Shown here: in pieces, positions 49,909-55,154 of the stretch | How positions within the stretch are numbered: position 1 is the stretch's first letter | Layout of the letters: each line of letters begins with the position of its first letter | Origin: Sphingobacterium tabacisoli | GTDB lineage: Bacteria; Bacteroidota; Bacteroidia; Sphingobacteriales; Sphingobacteriaceae | Length of the DNA: 64,000 nt | Assembly: GCF_017908035.1 (NCBI RefSeq) | Contig: NZ_JAEQMU010000011.1 | Coordinates: forward strand, 1 to 64,000 | Direction: 5' to 3' | Position numbers and translations under genes: made by a program | Notes under the pieces: model-generated | What the model was told of the DNA's origin: nothing | Database searches by the model: none | What the model saw: the letters and a program-made list of their open reading frames with translations, nothing else

Positions 49909-52590
49909 ATGAACACAATATATAAAGTCACATCATTCATTTTATTTATTTTTATAACACAGATTACAATAGCACAAACCCTTAGCACTGCTGTATTTGA
50001 AGTGCCGGGAAACTGTGGTATGTGTAAAAAACGTATTGAAACAGCTGCCAAAATATCAGGTGTAGAATCGGCAGTGTGGGACGACAAAACCCACAAGATT
50101 ACAACAAAGTACAATTCTAAAAAAGTCAACCTAAACCAAATCCAACAGGCGATTGCCAAAGCAGGCCACGACACCCCGTTAGTCAAAGCGGAAGACGATG
50201 TATACGCCAAGCTACATGAGTGCTGTCTATATGAGCGACTAGGTGAAGGCAAAAAAGACGAACATGCAGGTCACAACCACGATGATCATGCTGGACATAA
50301 TCATGACGACCATGCTGGACATAACCATGATGATCACGCCGGGCATAGCCATGACCCTAAGGCAAAACACGATGACGATGATGACCATGAGCACCATGAT
50401 CACGAACATATTATAACGGGTGTAGTCGTGAATGAAGATGGAAAAGCAGAGCTTACTCCGATTGTCGGCGTGAATATCAAATGGCTCGAAGCACCATCAA
50501 AACAGACTACAAGTAATGAAAATGGGGTATTCAAGATAAAACATGAAAAAGGATACAAACATCTCGTATTCTCCCACCCGGGGATGCAGGCAGATACTGT
50601 AGTCGTAAAAAACCTTCATGAAGTACTCGTTATCCACTCTAAGGACAATGTACTATCGGAAGTAGTAGTATCAAGAAGTAAAAAAGCGACCTATATCAAC
50701 AAGCTAAATCCAAACCGGATGGAAGTACTTACGACAAAGGAACTTTTCAAAGCGGCATGTTGTGACTTGAGCGAGAGTTTCTCGACCAATGCGTCTGTCG
50801 ACGTCGTGAGCAATGATGCGGTAACAGGTAGTAAACAGATCCAAATGTTAGGCTTAAGTGGTATCTATACCCAACTAACAGTAGAAGGTTTACCAGGACC
50901 CCGTGGTTTTGCAACACCGCTAGGTTTGAATAGTATTGCTGGGACATGGATCAACTCTATAGAAATTTCTAAAGGTATCGGGTCTGTTGTTAATGGATTT
51001 GAAAATATGGCAGGACAGATCAATATCGAATTGAAAAAGCCACATGACTCGGACAGGTTATTTTTCAACGCTTATGCCAATAACATGGGCCGTACGGATA
51101 TCAACCTAAACTTAGCACAAAAGCTGAATGATAAGTGGTCGGTAGGTTTCTTGCTCCATGACAACTTCATGTACAATAAAGGCATGAACTATAGTAAAAA
51201 TGGATATAGAGATGCACCTGTAGGTAATCTATTCTCCGGAATCAACAGATGGCATTACGAAGATGGAAAAGGTGTGATTGCACAATTTGGGGTTAAATAC
51301 CTTAAAGACGATCGTACGGGAGGACATACCGATTTCAATAAATCTACGGACAAAGGTACAACCAATAGATATGGAATCGGTTTCGACAACCAACGCATTG
51401 AAGGGTTTGCTAAAATCGGATATGTATTCCCCGAAAACAGATTGAGAAGTATCGGCCTACAATTATCTGGTTCGAACTATAAACAAGACAGCTACTTTGG
51501 GCTTACTAATTACCTAAGCGAGCAAAGCAGTGGCTATGCCAACCTTATCTTTCAAGATGTAATTGGTTCTATAGCTCACAAGTATAAGGTGGGAGCTTCG
51601 ATCTCTTATGATGACTATGACGAGACAATAAACAAATCCAATTTCAAACGGAAAGAAGCAGTTACAGGCGCATTTGCAGAATATACCTACAGCCCTACTG
51701 AAAACTTTGATGCGGTATTAGGTCTCCGCCAGGACTACAATTCTCTATACGGCTGGTTTACCACGCCAAGAGCTGTGGTACGTTATGCACCAACATCAAC
51801 TACAACGCTCCGCTTAAGCTCCGGAAGAGGACAGCGCACAGCAAATATATTTGCGGAGAACATGAGCATATTCGCATCGAGCCGTACGATTGACTTCGCT
51901 TCTTTAGCAAACCAGAACAATGCCTATGGGTTAAAACCAGAGGTATCTTGGAACACGGGACTGACCTTTGACCAGGACTTTCAATTGTTCGGACGGGAAG
52001 CGGGAATATCCATGGAATTATTCCATAATAACTTCCAGAATCAGGTTGTTATCGATTTTGAGGACCCAAGAGCGGTATCTTTCTATAACCTAGAAGGCAA
52101 ATCATTCTCGAACAGTTTGCAGACAGAACTACGCTTTATGCCTGCACAGCACTTTGAAGCTAGATTTGCATACAGACTGTTAGATGTACAGACAGACTAT
52201 GCTAGCGGACGTCTACAGAAACCATTGACGGCAAAACATAGAGGTTTCATGAACCTTGCCTACAATCTGCATAGCGGATGGTCGTTTGACTACACGGTAA
52301 ATGTAGTAGGTAAAAAGAGAATGCCTTCTACGGCATCCAACCCAGTAGAGTACCAACTACCGGAGAACTCTAAGTCGTACGTAACGATGAATGCACAGGT
52401 CAGTAGAAAATTAGGAAAAAACAAGAATATCGATATCTATGTAGGTGGTGAAAACTTAACAAATTACTACCAAAAAGATCCGATATTAGGTTTTGACCAA
52501 CCTTTTGGCCAATATTTTGACACCAACTTATTATGGGGTCCACTAACAGGTAGAATGTTCTACACTGGGGTGAGATACCACATAAAGTAA
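49909..52590 (+). CDS. TonB-dependent outer-membrane receptor with HMA domain and His-rich repeat
   Basis: The 893-residue receptor has a signal peptide (to about residue 23, IAQT), an HMA-type metal-binding domain (about 25-100) with the CxxC of GNCGMCKKRIE (C36, C39), a CC pair (HECCLYERL), and then a His/Asp-rich stretch (119-167) containing four 8-residue units HAGHNHDD. A carboxypeptidase-like domain (about 168-250), the plug (with AACCDLSESFSTNASVDVV) and a beta-barrel ending GVRYHIK follow. It probably takes up or senses a transition metal such as copper; the metal cannot be told from sequence. It presumably depends on TonB. Confidence 0.88.
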   Translation: MNTIYKVTSFILFIFITQITIAQTLSTAVFEVPGNCGMCKKRIETAAKISGVESAVWDDKTHKITTKYNSKKVNLNQIQQAIAKAGHDTPLVKAEDDVYAKLHECCLYERLGEGKKDEHAGHNHDDHAGHNHDDHAGHNHDDHAGHSHDPKAKHDDDDDHEHHDHEHIITGVVVNEDGKAELTPIVGVNIKWLEAPSKQTTSNENGVFKIKHEKGYKHLVFSHPGMQADTVVVKNLHEVLVIHSKDNVLSEVVVSRSKKATYINKLNPNRMEVLTTKELFKAACCDLSESFSTNASVDVVSNDAVTGSKQIQMLGLSGIYTQLTVEGLPGPRGFATPLGLNSIAGTWINSIEISKGIGSVVNGFENMAGQINIELKKPHDSDRLFFNAYANNMGRTDINLNLAQKLNDKWSVGFLLHDNFMYNKGMNYSKNGYRDAPVGNLFSGINRWHYEDGKGVIAQFGVKYLKDDRTGGHTDFNKSTDKGTTNRYGIGFDNQRIEGFAKIGYVFPENRLRSIGLQLSGSNYKQDSYFGLTNYLSEQSSGYANLIFQDVIGSIAHKYKVGASISYDDYDETINKSNFKRKEAVTGAFAEYTYSPTENFDAVLGLRQDYNSLYGWFTTPRAVVRYAPTSTTTLRLSSGRGQRTANIFAENMSIFASSRTIDFASLANQNNAYGLKPEVSWNTGLTFDQDFQLFGREAGISMELFHNNFQNQVVIDFEDPRAVSFYNLEGKSFSNSLQTELRFMPAQHFEARFAYRLLDVQTDYASGRLQKPLTAKHRGFMNLAYNLHSGWSFDYTVNVVGKKRMPSTASNPVEYQLPENSKSYVTMNAQVSRKLGKNKNIDIYVGGENLTNYYQKDPILGFDQPFGQYFDTNLLWGPLTGRMFYTGVRYHIK
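50263..50358 (+). repeat. Four 24-bp coding repeats (HAGHNHDD)
   Basis: Four consecutive 24-bp units encode HAGHNHDD three times and HAGHSHDP once. Their third positions vary, so protein selection rather than fresh slippage keeps them. Repeat number may differ between strains. Confidence 0.85.
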
Positions 52591-53227: not shown

Positions 53228-53746
53228 TTATATACTTTTTATTAGAACTTCCGTATGCCACTTATCCTGAAGGCGTAAAACCTTTTCTATAATCTCGCGC
53301 ACGATGCCTTCGCCTCCCCGTTTGGTAGAGACGTAGTGACTTATGCGTTTGATATCTTCAACGGCATCTGCTGGTGCAATGGCTGCGCCGACTTGCTCCA
53401 TACAGCTATAATCAGGCATATCATCGCCAATAAAGGCCATATCCGCTAAGCGCAAATTGTAACGCGTAGCAAGCTCCTCAAGCAGACTCAGCTTGTCCGA
53501 GACGCCCAAATGTATCTCAGGAACATGAAGCCCCTCCATACGTTTTAAAACGCCCTGAGAATGTCCTCCTGTAATCACAAAAATCAACAAGCCCTGCTTG
53601 GCTGCATACTGAATTGCATAGCCATCCTTGACATTGAAGGTCCGCAATTGCTCTCCATTTTCGTTGACTAAAATAGCACCATCTGTCAACACGCCATCGA
53701 CATCCAAAACAATGCATTTTATATTTTTTAACGTAGAATAAATCAT
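53228..53746 (-). CDS. KdsC-type HAD phosphatase
   Basis: This is a HAD-family hydrolase of 172 residues. It shows the nucleophile motif VLDVDGVLTDG and motif IV IGDDMPDYSCM. Length and motifs match the KDO-8-phosphate phosphatase (KdsC) group, which works in lipopolysaccharide synthesis. The substrate cannot be fixed from sequence alone, as related proteins act on other sugar phosphates. A TACCTTTG box lies on the minus strand 8 bp upstream of the start. Confidence 0.86.
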   Translation of the reverse strand: MIYSTLKNIKCIVLDVDGVLTDGAILVNENGEQLRTFNVKDGYAIQYAAKQGLLIFVITGGHSQGVLKRMEGLHVPEIHLGVSDKLSLLEELATRYNLRLADMAFIGDDMPDYSCMEQVGAAIAPADAVEDIKRISHYVSTKRGGEGIVREIIEKVLRLQDKWHTEVLIKSI

Positions 53747-53754
53747 AACTAATA

Positions 53755-53762
53755 CAAAGGTA
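53755..53762 (-). promoter_or_regulatory. Candidate -7 element of the KdsC-type/maf operon
   Basis: TACCTTTG on the minus strand matches TAnnTTTG, 8 bp before the ATG at 53746. No clear -33 element is visible. Confidence 0.4.
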
Positions 53763-53889
53763 ACTAATAATAGTAGATATGCTAAACCGCCTCCTTACTC
53801 AAAATAGCCATAGATTTATCAATATAACCCAGAAACATCAAAACTTTGTCACAAAGTAGTTGTTATCGCAACTTTTATACAGATAAGTC

Positions 53890-53920
53890 TTGACAGCTAT
53901 CGATTCTTGACGTAACTTTG
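53890..53920 (+). promoter_or_regulatory. Promoter of the small-RNA candidate
   Basis: TTG (53890-53892), then 20 bp, then TAACTTTG (53913-53920) fits the Bacteroidota consensus. No ORF of convincing length follows in this direction. Confidence 0.75.
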
Positions 53921-53925
53921 TGTTA

Positions 53926-54050
53926 ACAATTCGGAAATCTATGTAAGTGTTCGAATAGAAAAAAGAGTTGTTTTAGAATAGTCTTTTCATAATTTAGGTT
54001 TATAATTGGTTAGTAGCAAACCTTGGCGCCCATCGTCAAGGTTTTGTTCT
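53926..54050 (+). ncRNA. Candidate small RNA, about 125 nt, rod-like hairpin plus terminator
   Basis: Downstream of a good promoter the sequence folds by eye into one long irregular hairpin: CAATT (53927-53931) with AATTG (54004-54008), AAATCT (53935-53940) with AGGTTT (53996-54001, two G-U or G-C changes included), ATG (53941-53943) with CAT (53988-53990), AAAAGA (53961-53966) with TCTTTT (53982-53987). A terminator follows. A bulged rod of this length with its own promoter recalls 6S RNA, which in Bacteroidota can be about 100 nt; this identity is only a hypothesis. Confidence 0.6.
54018..54050 (+). terminator. Terminator of the small-RNA candidate
   Basis: An 8-bp stem AAACCTTG (54018-54025) / CAAGGTTT (54037-54044) is followed by TGTTCTTTT. 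The T-rich tail is only on the plus strand. Confidence 0.8.
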
Positions 54051-54124
54051 TTTATGGCCTTATATAAGAAGCCCCAACAGACAACTTATCACACAGTCCC
54101 TCAAATGCAGTCTCTTTTTAGATA

Positions 54125-54154
54125 AAAAAAGGGGCATTTTAGTGCCCCTTTTTT
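54125..54154 (-). terminator. Terminator of floA
   Basis: A 12-bp stem AAAAAAGGGGCA / TGCCCCTTTTTT with a 6-nt loop, with T runs in both directions, lies 17 bp beyond the floA stop. Confidence 0.88.
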
Positions 54155-54170
54155 ATAACGGTATCTTGGT

Positions 54171-55154
54171 TTAAGACTTATTCTTATCCGAGCCTTTAGG
54201 ATTAGATATGGATGAACGCATATCAGTATCCGCTTGAATATTTTGCATCTTGTAATAATCCATTACCCCTAGATTACCATTACGAAAAGCTTCTGCCATC
54301 GCTAATGGTACTTGCGCCTCAGCTTCGATTACCTTAGCCTTAGCTTCCTGTGCTTTCGCTCTCATCTCCTGCTCATTCGCGACCGCCATAGCGCGACGCT
54401 CTTCAGCACGGGCATTAGCTACTTTAAGGTCAGCTTCCGCTTGGTCTGTCTGTAATTTCGCACCTACGTTCTCGCCGATATCGATATCTGCAATATCAAT
54501 AGATAAGATTTCAAAGGCTGTTCCTGAATCCAATCCTTTCGATAATACCGTTTTAGAAATACGGTCAGGATTTTCCAAAACCTCTTTATGGTTTGCAGAA
54601 GAACCTATAGTCGTAACAATACCTTCCCCCACACGAGCTAGAATTGTTTCTTCTCCGGCACCACCCACCAACTGATTAATATTGGCACGTACCGTAACTC
54701 TCGCTTTCGCGATCAACTGTATACCGTCTTTGGCAACAGCAGCTACAGGAGGCGTATTGATAACCTGAGGATTAACAGAAAGCTGTACCGCATCAAAAAC
54801 ATCACGTCCAGCCAAATCGATAGCTGTAGCAAGTTTAAAATCCAAAGGAATATTAGCCTTATCTGCAGAAATCAACGCTCTTATAACCTTATTTACGTTA
54901 CCACCAGCAAGGTAGTGCGTCTCGATATCATTGGTGCTGATACGAAGTCCTGCTTTGGTCGACGTAATCATCGCATTGGTAACCAATGCAGGAGACACCT
55001 TCCGTAAGCGCATTAGCACGAGATTCAGTAGACTGATACGTACATTAGAAAGTTGAGCGGTAAACCAAAGATTGACCGGCAATAGATAGAATAAAAAAAA
55101 CAGTGCTATTACAGCACCAATGATGGTTAAAATTAAAGATACGTCTGGATTCAT
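54171..55154 (-). CDS. floA: Flotillin-like protein FloA
   Basis: FloA is an SPFH-related membrane scaffold that organises lipid microdomains. The N-terminal hydrophobic hairpin (about 5-27) anchors it to the membrane. The SPFH-like body follows ([42 protein letters not shown]). A long Ala/Glu-rich coiled coil (about 235-295) makes up the C-terminal part. Its length of 327 residues is typical of the UPF0365/FloA family. It is a single-gene unit. Confidence 0.92.

Follow-up and report, generated by a model that had tools for sequence, protein, structure and literature searches.

The small RNA gene located between a kdsC-type gene and floA in Sphingobacterium tabacisoli is best explained as the kdsC-adjacent member of a multicopy, trans-acting sRNA family of the Sphingobacteriaceae that would repress SusC-type transporters in a FopS-like mode, a reading to which we assign a probability of about 0.58. 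The gene lies in the 64,000-nt stretch of DNA analysed here, referred to as the window, and is one of ~36 related genomic copies of an apparently undescribed sRNA. Judged from sequence comparison, the existence of the sRNA family is close to certain. The initial annotation, which had proposed an independent small RNA gene, perhaps for 6S RNA, was partly confirmed: the sequence evidence supports the sRNA gene and leads us to reject 6S.

Organisation of the kdsC-adjacent locus

A plus-strand promoter of the Bacteroidota primary-sigma type was present at positions 53890-53920 as originally described, with TTG at 53890-53892, a 20-nt spacer and TAACTTTG at 53913-53920. Between the TAACTTTG element and the core lie ~60 nt of variable 5' sequence, in which the fold of the predicted transcript places a sequence-variable hairpin at 53925-53972 (53925-53932 paired with 53965-53972, and an inner stem of 53938-53942 with 53955-53959). 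The core itself, GTCTTTTCATAATTTAGGTTTATAATTGGTTAGTA (53981-54015, plus strand), was delimited by orthologue and paralogue conservation and is the proposed seed region. It is followed by the intrinsic terminator that had been annotated (54018-54053), with a stem of 11 pairs (54018-54028/54034-54044), the loop CCCAT and then TGTTCTTTT, giving a T-rich tail. The left neighbour, a KdsC-type HAD hydrolase gene (53228-53746, minus strand), is divergent from the sRNA gene and the right neighbour, floA (54171-55154, minus strand; FloA, PF12127, E 3e-161), is convergent. No ORF of at least 40 aa was found at the locus, in agreement with the earlier description, and the predicted transcript has stop codons in all three frames, which rules out the reading as a small ORF.

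The stretch 53890-54050 folded better than chance (z -2.48; 2 of 200 shuffles were as good), but in its MFE structure the core pairs with promoter DNA that lies before the predicted start. In the fold of the predicted transcript, the 5' hairpin is followed by the core, which contains a single weak hairpin, and by the terminator; the single rod of four helices at 53927-54008 that had first been drawn was not recovered. Using Rfam 15, no match at gathering was obtained anywhere in the window. Up to E=10, the region 53740-54170 gave 23 low-scoring matches, far below their own gathering scores, and no 6S family was among them. Other Rfam families are ruled out, with no gathering-level match in the window or in five tRNA-linked loci. 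Elsewhere in the window (49909-52590), inspection by eye revealed a TonB-dependent receptor-like protein with an N-terminal metal-binding-like domain and a histidine-rich HDHAGHNHD repeat.

Conservation of the element within Sphingobacterium

A BLASTN search of 53880-54060 against 59 genomes returned strong matches in all 35 other Sphingobacterium genomes (best E 2e-54 to 4e-20), and no match better than E 0.008 outside the genus. Among the loci of named genomes listed with an exact core match, the nearest relative of the window locus was that of Sphingobacterium yanglingense (KdsC 94%, FloA 98%). Orthologues were analysed at 30 loci among the 36 genomes of the genus with matches; the window is itself one of these, so that 29 of the 35 other genomes are represented. 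The sRNA adjoins kdsC at all 30 loci, with floA also within the fetched 3 kb at 18. A stretch of 35 nt, GTCTTTT...GTTAGTA (53981-54015), is identical in 30/30 loci including the window. KdsC identity is only 53-69% in 28 of the 29 other loci and 80% in one, yet this core is invariant.

The promoter word TAnnTTTG was found 53-75 nt upstream of the core at 23 of the 30 loci and was absent from the 130 nt upstream of the core at the remaining seven, which were left out of the alignment (A2) and of the 5'-segment fold test. In these 23 loci the 5' segments vary in length and sequence. Since 21 of the 23 segments folded better than their shuffles (z<-1; mean z -2.84, with 200 dinucleotide shuffles each), a short 5' hairpin is kept among the orthologues. 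Because the sequences are related, the corresponding Stouffer value of -13.6 should not be taken as a clean probability. Of the single-sequence MFE structures of the 23 orthologues, 17 had pairs between the 35 nt and the 5' part, over 5-27 nt and with differing partners, and in 21 the core formed a weak hairpin of its own. As these pairings between the core and the 5' part differ in partner and length, no common rod is seen. Collectively, these comparisons indicate that the promoter (23/30), the 5' hairpin, the invariant core and the terminator are kept well beyond chance. Of the conservation that the initial annotation had proposed as a check, the promoter-terminator pair was kept and the rod helices were not. 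The predicted independent plus-strand sRNA gene of ~125 nt is thus well supported by its promoter, terminator, synteny and conservation.

A multicopy family in the Sphingobacteriaceae

The core word TTTAGGTTTATAATTGGTTAGTA occurs in 29 genomic copies within 3 mismatches, and the reversed core pattern in none at the same tolerance. Each copy has a constant 5' segment of ~30 nt (TCATAATTTAGGTTw followed by ATAATTGGTTAGT) and, directly after it, a terminator hairpin of variable stem. When the 29 members were folded, the terminator loop was usually C-rich, with CUCCCC or GCCCAUC common within classes. By eye, similarity between copies begins at the promoter or start site and stops at the terminator, and the flanks are class-specific.

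A covariance model (R1) was built from 26 of the 29 members (alignment A1), leaving out L045, L050 and L053 as identical or near-identical. In the S. tabacisoli genome the model gave at least 36 matches at E<1e-6 and at least 38 at E<0.01, among the best 150 of 2797 candidates scored. Matches were obtained in 112 of 151 Sphingobacteriaceae genomes, representing 18 of 25 genera. Under strict filters, 13 genomes of a phylum sample of 395 matched, eight of them Sphingobacteriaceae; the five hits outside the family were weak and single (E 2e-4 to 0.009), and the sample held no multicopy relatives outside the family by this model. The exact core was present at 119 or more loci of named genomes. Among the matches listed, these belonged to Sphingobacterium, Mucilaginibacter, Parapedobacter, Olivibacter, Albibacterium and Rhinopithecimicrobium, with further sources named as Sphingobacteriaceae bacterium, bacterium A37T11 and Bacteroidetes bacterium MAGs.

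In members cut at 70 nt, the MFE structure had no core pairs in 20 of 29, and the mean unpaired probability of the core was 0.69 (lowest 0.52). The value was 0.58 in the 23 long orthologues and 0.54 in the window copy; the seed is accordingly not fully open. Covariation of the terminator stem was evaluated on a gapless alignment (A3) of 15 of the 29 members, all of one loop class, which is other than that of the window copy. Here, 18 cells had changed on both sides compared to 5.7 in shuffles (0/500 as high), 95% of the stem cells were still paired, and slid registers gave a clear optimum. Two of the five covariation measures were less extreme, being matched in 7/500 and 51/500 shuffles.

Eleven of the 36 copies with E<1e-6 lie within ~50 kb (C1:1110-1160 kb), and the genes among which they are located include those for ECF sigma factors, a Fic-domain protein and SusC proteins. 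Another copy, L031, adjoins genes for a TetR-type regulator and an outer-membrane efflux protein (OEP).

Promoter classes and the predicted transcript start

Promoter words were placed by their offset from the C of CATAAT in the conserved block. The sigma-54-like word GG-N10-G(A/C/T) starts exactly at -29 in 15 of the 29 copies, compared to 10 such words at the other offsets combined, and TAnnTTTG starts exactly at -14 in 8 of the 29. Neither word is at its position in six copies, L039, L056-L059 and the window copy (L032), which has its TAnnTTTG at -75 and hence a longer 5' part. Recently related paralogues are not independent in these counts; the sigma-54 type nevertheless includes diverged members. 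An rpoN gene is present in the genome. The usual spacing of sigma-54 promoter elements is -24/-12 relative to the start, and by this spacing transcripts of the sigma-54-like class are predicted to begin with the first base of the conserved block, TATTCATAATT. For the TAnnTTTG class at -14, the predicted start is this base or one within a few bases of it. That two unrelated promoter types agree on one start is strong evidence that the conserved block forms the 5' end of a transcript. Predicted transcript lengths are ~125 nt for the window copy (53924-54050) and ~65-70 nt for the other copies. Since the copies carry different promoters, different signals should feed one regulator.

In named genomes, TAnnTTTG was found at -14 in 28 of 112 distinct copies among the matches listed. 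The word GG-N10-GC at -66, present in 22 of these 112 copies, was dropped as a candidate sigma-54 site because it belongs to a tRNA-like gene. Inspection by eye revealed an inverted repeat, GTGTA-N5-TACAC, immediately before the TAnnTTTG promoter element of L033, L035, L048, L053, L147, L226 and L237, which is perhaps the operator of some regulator. Four sigma-54-type copies at C1:1119-1160 kb (L036, L040, L041 and L043) share TGTAACCTTTTTGTTAAC further upstream, also seen by eye, and this is perhaps an enhancer site.

Complementarity of the core to SusC leaders

The complement of the core, AACTAACCAATTATTAACCTAAATTATGA, resembles the SusC start region. The SusC set from S. tabacisoli comprised the 56 TIGR04056 matches listed (best 56 of 198 candidates scored), represented by positions -45 to +24 around the most upstream in-frame ATG, which was taken as the start codon. 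Mean duplex energy with the 36-nt core was -13.5 kcal/mol for the 56 SusC leaders compared to -10.3 for 97 other starts (p=4.4e-9), and neither 40 shuffled cores nor 20 shuffled leader sets included one as low as the SusC mean. The core variant of the window gave -14.5 for SusC and -12.6 for other starts (p=5e-4), again with 0/40 and 0/20 shuffles as low. SusD starts, which were sought at 30 of the 56 SusC loci and found at 29, averaged -10.8 with the core, the SusC leaders being lower (p=1.8e-4). The word AACTAA was present in 22 of the 56 SusC leaders (upstream of the ATG in 19) compared to 3 of 97 other starts, and ACCTAA in 10 of 56 compared to 0 of 97. The eight best predicted duplexes between core and SusC leaders fell between -39 and +7 around the AUG; the leaders with the best scores include those of the SusC genes at C1:65925, C1:1182771, C14:129645 and C1:1687318. 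The positional profile of pairing peaked from -30 to 0, with the reversed core showing part of the -30 peak (-10.5 vs -9.8). A register that sets CAU against AUG was mildly enriched (34/56 SusC leaders vs 39/97 other starts, p=0.011). Some non-SusC starts also scored well with the core.

Two other genomes were compared, with 35 of 53 SusC leaders listed for each. In G153 the reversed core was nearly as good as the core (-12.5 vs -13.8), and the contrast between SusC and SusD was weak (n=15, p=0.013). The SusC leaders of G092 were at least as complementary (-14.8), though this genome gave no match to the covariance model and held one 3-mismatch core without a recognisable terminator. Complementarity therefore does not separate this control, in which the sRNA was not detected, from sRNA-bearing genomes, and the SusC leader motif is wider in distribution than the detected sRNA. 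The words AACTAA, AACCAA and AACCTAA recur near SusC starts (AACTAA in 3/35 leaders of G153 and 19/35 of G092) and may serve as translation signals; by eye, the SusC leaders have no obvious Shine-Dalgarno sequence.

On balance, these comparisons favour base pairing of the core with SusC leaders, and we infer that the sRNA family represses SusC. In the proposed mechanism, the constant segment would act as an antisense seed, in which two G-containing words, UUAGGUU and UUGGUUAGUU, would pair with AACCTAA and AACTAACCAA, which recur close to the start codons of genes for SusC-type TonB-dependent transporters; the seed's 5' UCAUAAU could cover the AUG. Such pairing would block initiation at SusC leaders and thereby reduce uptake through SusC/SusD. 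The window copy has a TAnnTTTG promoter of its own, a 5' hairpin and a kept genomic position, and may be a 'housekeeping' member.

tRNA-linked relatives

At Mucilaginibacter-type loci, one copy lies directly 3' of a tRNA-like gene that shows an acceptor, a T arm and a long variable arm. A text pattern for a tRNA-like 3' end was present in 40 of the 119 named loci among the matches listed, and the D-arm word of the Mucilaginibacter-type element in 18 of the 151 family genomes, all of genus g38. In genome G161 (genus g41), two copies follow tRNA-like genes, one of which was called as tRNA-Tyr(ata) by ARAGORN (L374). When 31 tRNA-linked loci were scanned together, ARAGORN called no tRNA, and five such loci had no Rfam match at gathering. 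These tRNA-like genes have a very long variable arm, unusual anticodon loops and a 3' end running into the sRNA copy (L166:6900-7250, L222, L190, L272 and L365 for the Mucilaginibacter type; L369 and L374 in G161), and they occur in tandem at several of the sRNA-linked loci. The position of copies directly 3' of tRNA-like genes suggests a processing origin for some members, which may be made from a tRNA-like transcript. The 3'ETS-leuZ RNA of E. coli is a tRNA-trailer RNA located directly 3' of a tRNA gene. Some copies in Mucilaginibacter and g41 resemble it in their position; they differ in that an odd long arm marks the tRNA-like element preceding them, and in that the same core is also found in free-standing genes.

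Alternative explanations

6S RNA forms an extended, bulged rod whose centre opens into a bubble; resembling the DNA of an open promoter, it is bound by RNA polymerase and serves as template for product RNAs. The sRNA described here agrees with 6S and 6S-Flavo (RF00013, RF01685) in size class and in being an independent transcription unit, equipped with a promoter and a terminator. The longer stretch 53890-54050 also has a better fold than expected by chance, and the MFE structures of 17 of the 23 orthologues contain pairs between part of the core and the 5' part. Against this, the core is invariant while its pairings change between orthologues, so that the conserved part is a short stretch and not a common rod, and the core is found in 36 copies, which have promoters of several types and mostly lack the 5' part. 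The search for Rfam 6S families proposed in the initial annotation found none to E=10 in 53740-54170; genome-wide, RF01685 gave no match, and was equally silent in all 14 control genomes, so this second result is not decisive alone. The 6S identity has a negligible probability. A cis-acting leader or attenuator of the downstream gene is scarcely more credible. The layout of promoter and then terminator fits an attenuator, but the neighbouring genes differ among the copies inspected, and floA downstream of the window copy is convergent on the opposite strand, which rules out a cis leader for that copy. It is also very improbable that the copies have no function as RNA and are dispersed DNA repeats or mobile terminator cassettes. 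Their distribution, scattered but with a cluster of 11 of the 36 in C1:1110-1160 kb, would suit such a repeat; however, they carry two promoter types at fixed spacing, their terminator stems covary, copies of different classes have by eye no flanks in common outside the promoter and terminator, and 30/30 loci have a syntenic copy.

The remaining alternatives accept a functional RNA and place its action elsewhere. In a CsrB-like decoy, the invariant core would titrate an RNA-binding protein and copy number would set the dose. The invariance of the core (30/30) and the high copy number suit a protein site, and the SusC leader motif is present where the sRNA was not detected. A pure decoy does not predict, however, that complementarity between the core and words recurrent in SusC leaders should exceed that of shuffles and other starts, and a search for RRM_1 alone found no such protein in the genome; we consider the decoy unlikely. 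A base-pairing sRNA might instead have its main targets outside the SusC mRNAs, either in other leaders that contain these words or in other RNAs reached through the C-rich terminator loop. The non-SusC starts that score well and the loops CUCCCC or GCCCAUC common within classes are in line with this; the enrichment was nevertheless clearest for SusC among the three classes compared (SusC, SusD and other starts), and other main targets seem decidedly improbable. Repression of SusC-type transporters by a trans-acting sRNA family is the reading that we prefer.

Comparison with known sRNA systems

In the parts of the FopS report considered here (PMC11697453), FopS of Bacteroides thetaiotaomicron comprises 14 paralogous sRNAs with a conserved single-stranded seed and a terminator, pairs at the susC start and is bound by the RRM protein RbpB, with homologues reported within the Bacteroidaceae. 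To the extent of that description, the Sphingobacteriaceae family is alike in having many paralogues per genome (at least 36 compared to 14), a conserved 5' seed that a Rho-independent terminator follows directly, although the seed of the window copy is less open (0.54), and complementarity of the seed to susC start regions, which here extends to G092, where the sRNA was not detected. It differs from FopS, as so described, in its sigma-54-like words at 15/29 copies, and in that some relatives are tRNA-linked. FopS-like sRNAs have primary-sigma (TAnnTTTG) promoters, and here this word was observed at -14 in 8/29 copies and at -75 in the window copy. The FopS partner RbpB is without an RRM_1 counterpart in S. 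tabacisoli: no RRM_1 protein was found in its genome, and the same search found the control in Bacteroides ihuae and Synechococcus elongatus. By analogy with these described features, the family may work like FopS, and we do not file it as FopS. Among the titles and first parts of abstracts listed for open-licence papers, FopS was the sole multicopy SusC-directed sRNA family of the Bacteroidota, and none was named in the Sphingobacteriaceae.

The Qrr sRNAs of Vibrio use sigma-54 promoters and exist in four to five copies. They are alike as a multicopy sRNA family (mentioned in the parts of PMC11697453 considered), and differ from the Sphingobacteriaceae family, in which the promoter classes are mixed.

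Implications

A broader reading, which we put forward tentatively as possible and short of probable, is that the family is a Sphingobacteriaceae-wide RNA brake on SusC uptake, separate from FopS/RbpB, in which up to dozens of seed copies, each with a different input, would connect many signals to one generic SusC start-site motif. In that reading the inputs would be promoters for primary sigma, with or without a palindromic operator, sigma-54 promoters paired with an upstream site, and processing from a tRNA-like transcript. A covariance model is now at hand for this RNA, which has no Rfam 15 match in the window. If the proposed function is correct, this would be a very large paralogous sRNA family and a second case of post-transcriptional SusC control beside Bacteroides FopS, in a genome without the RRM partner. 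With an invariant seed, many promoters and dozens of SusC targets, it would offer a ready system for asking why tens of sRNA copies are kept.
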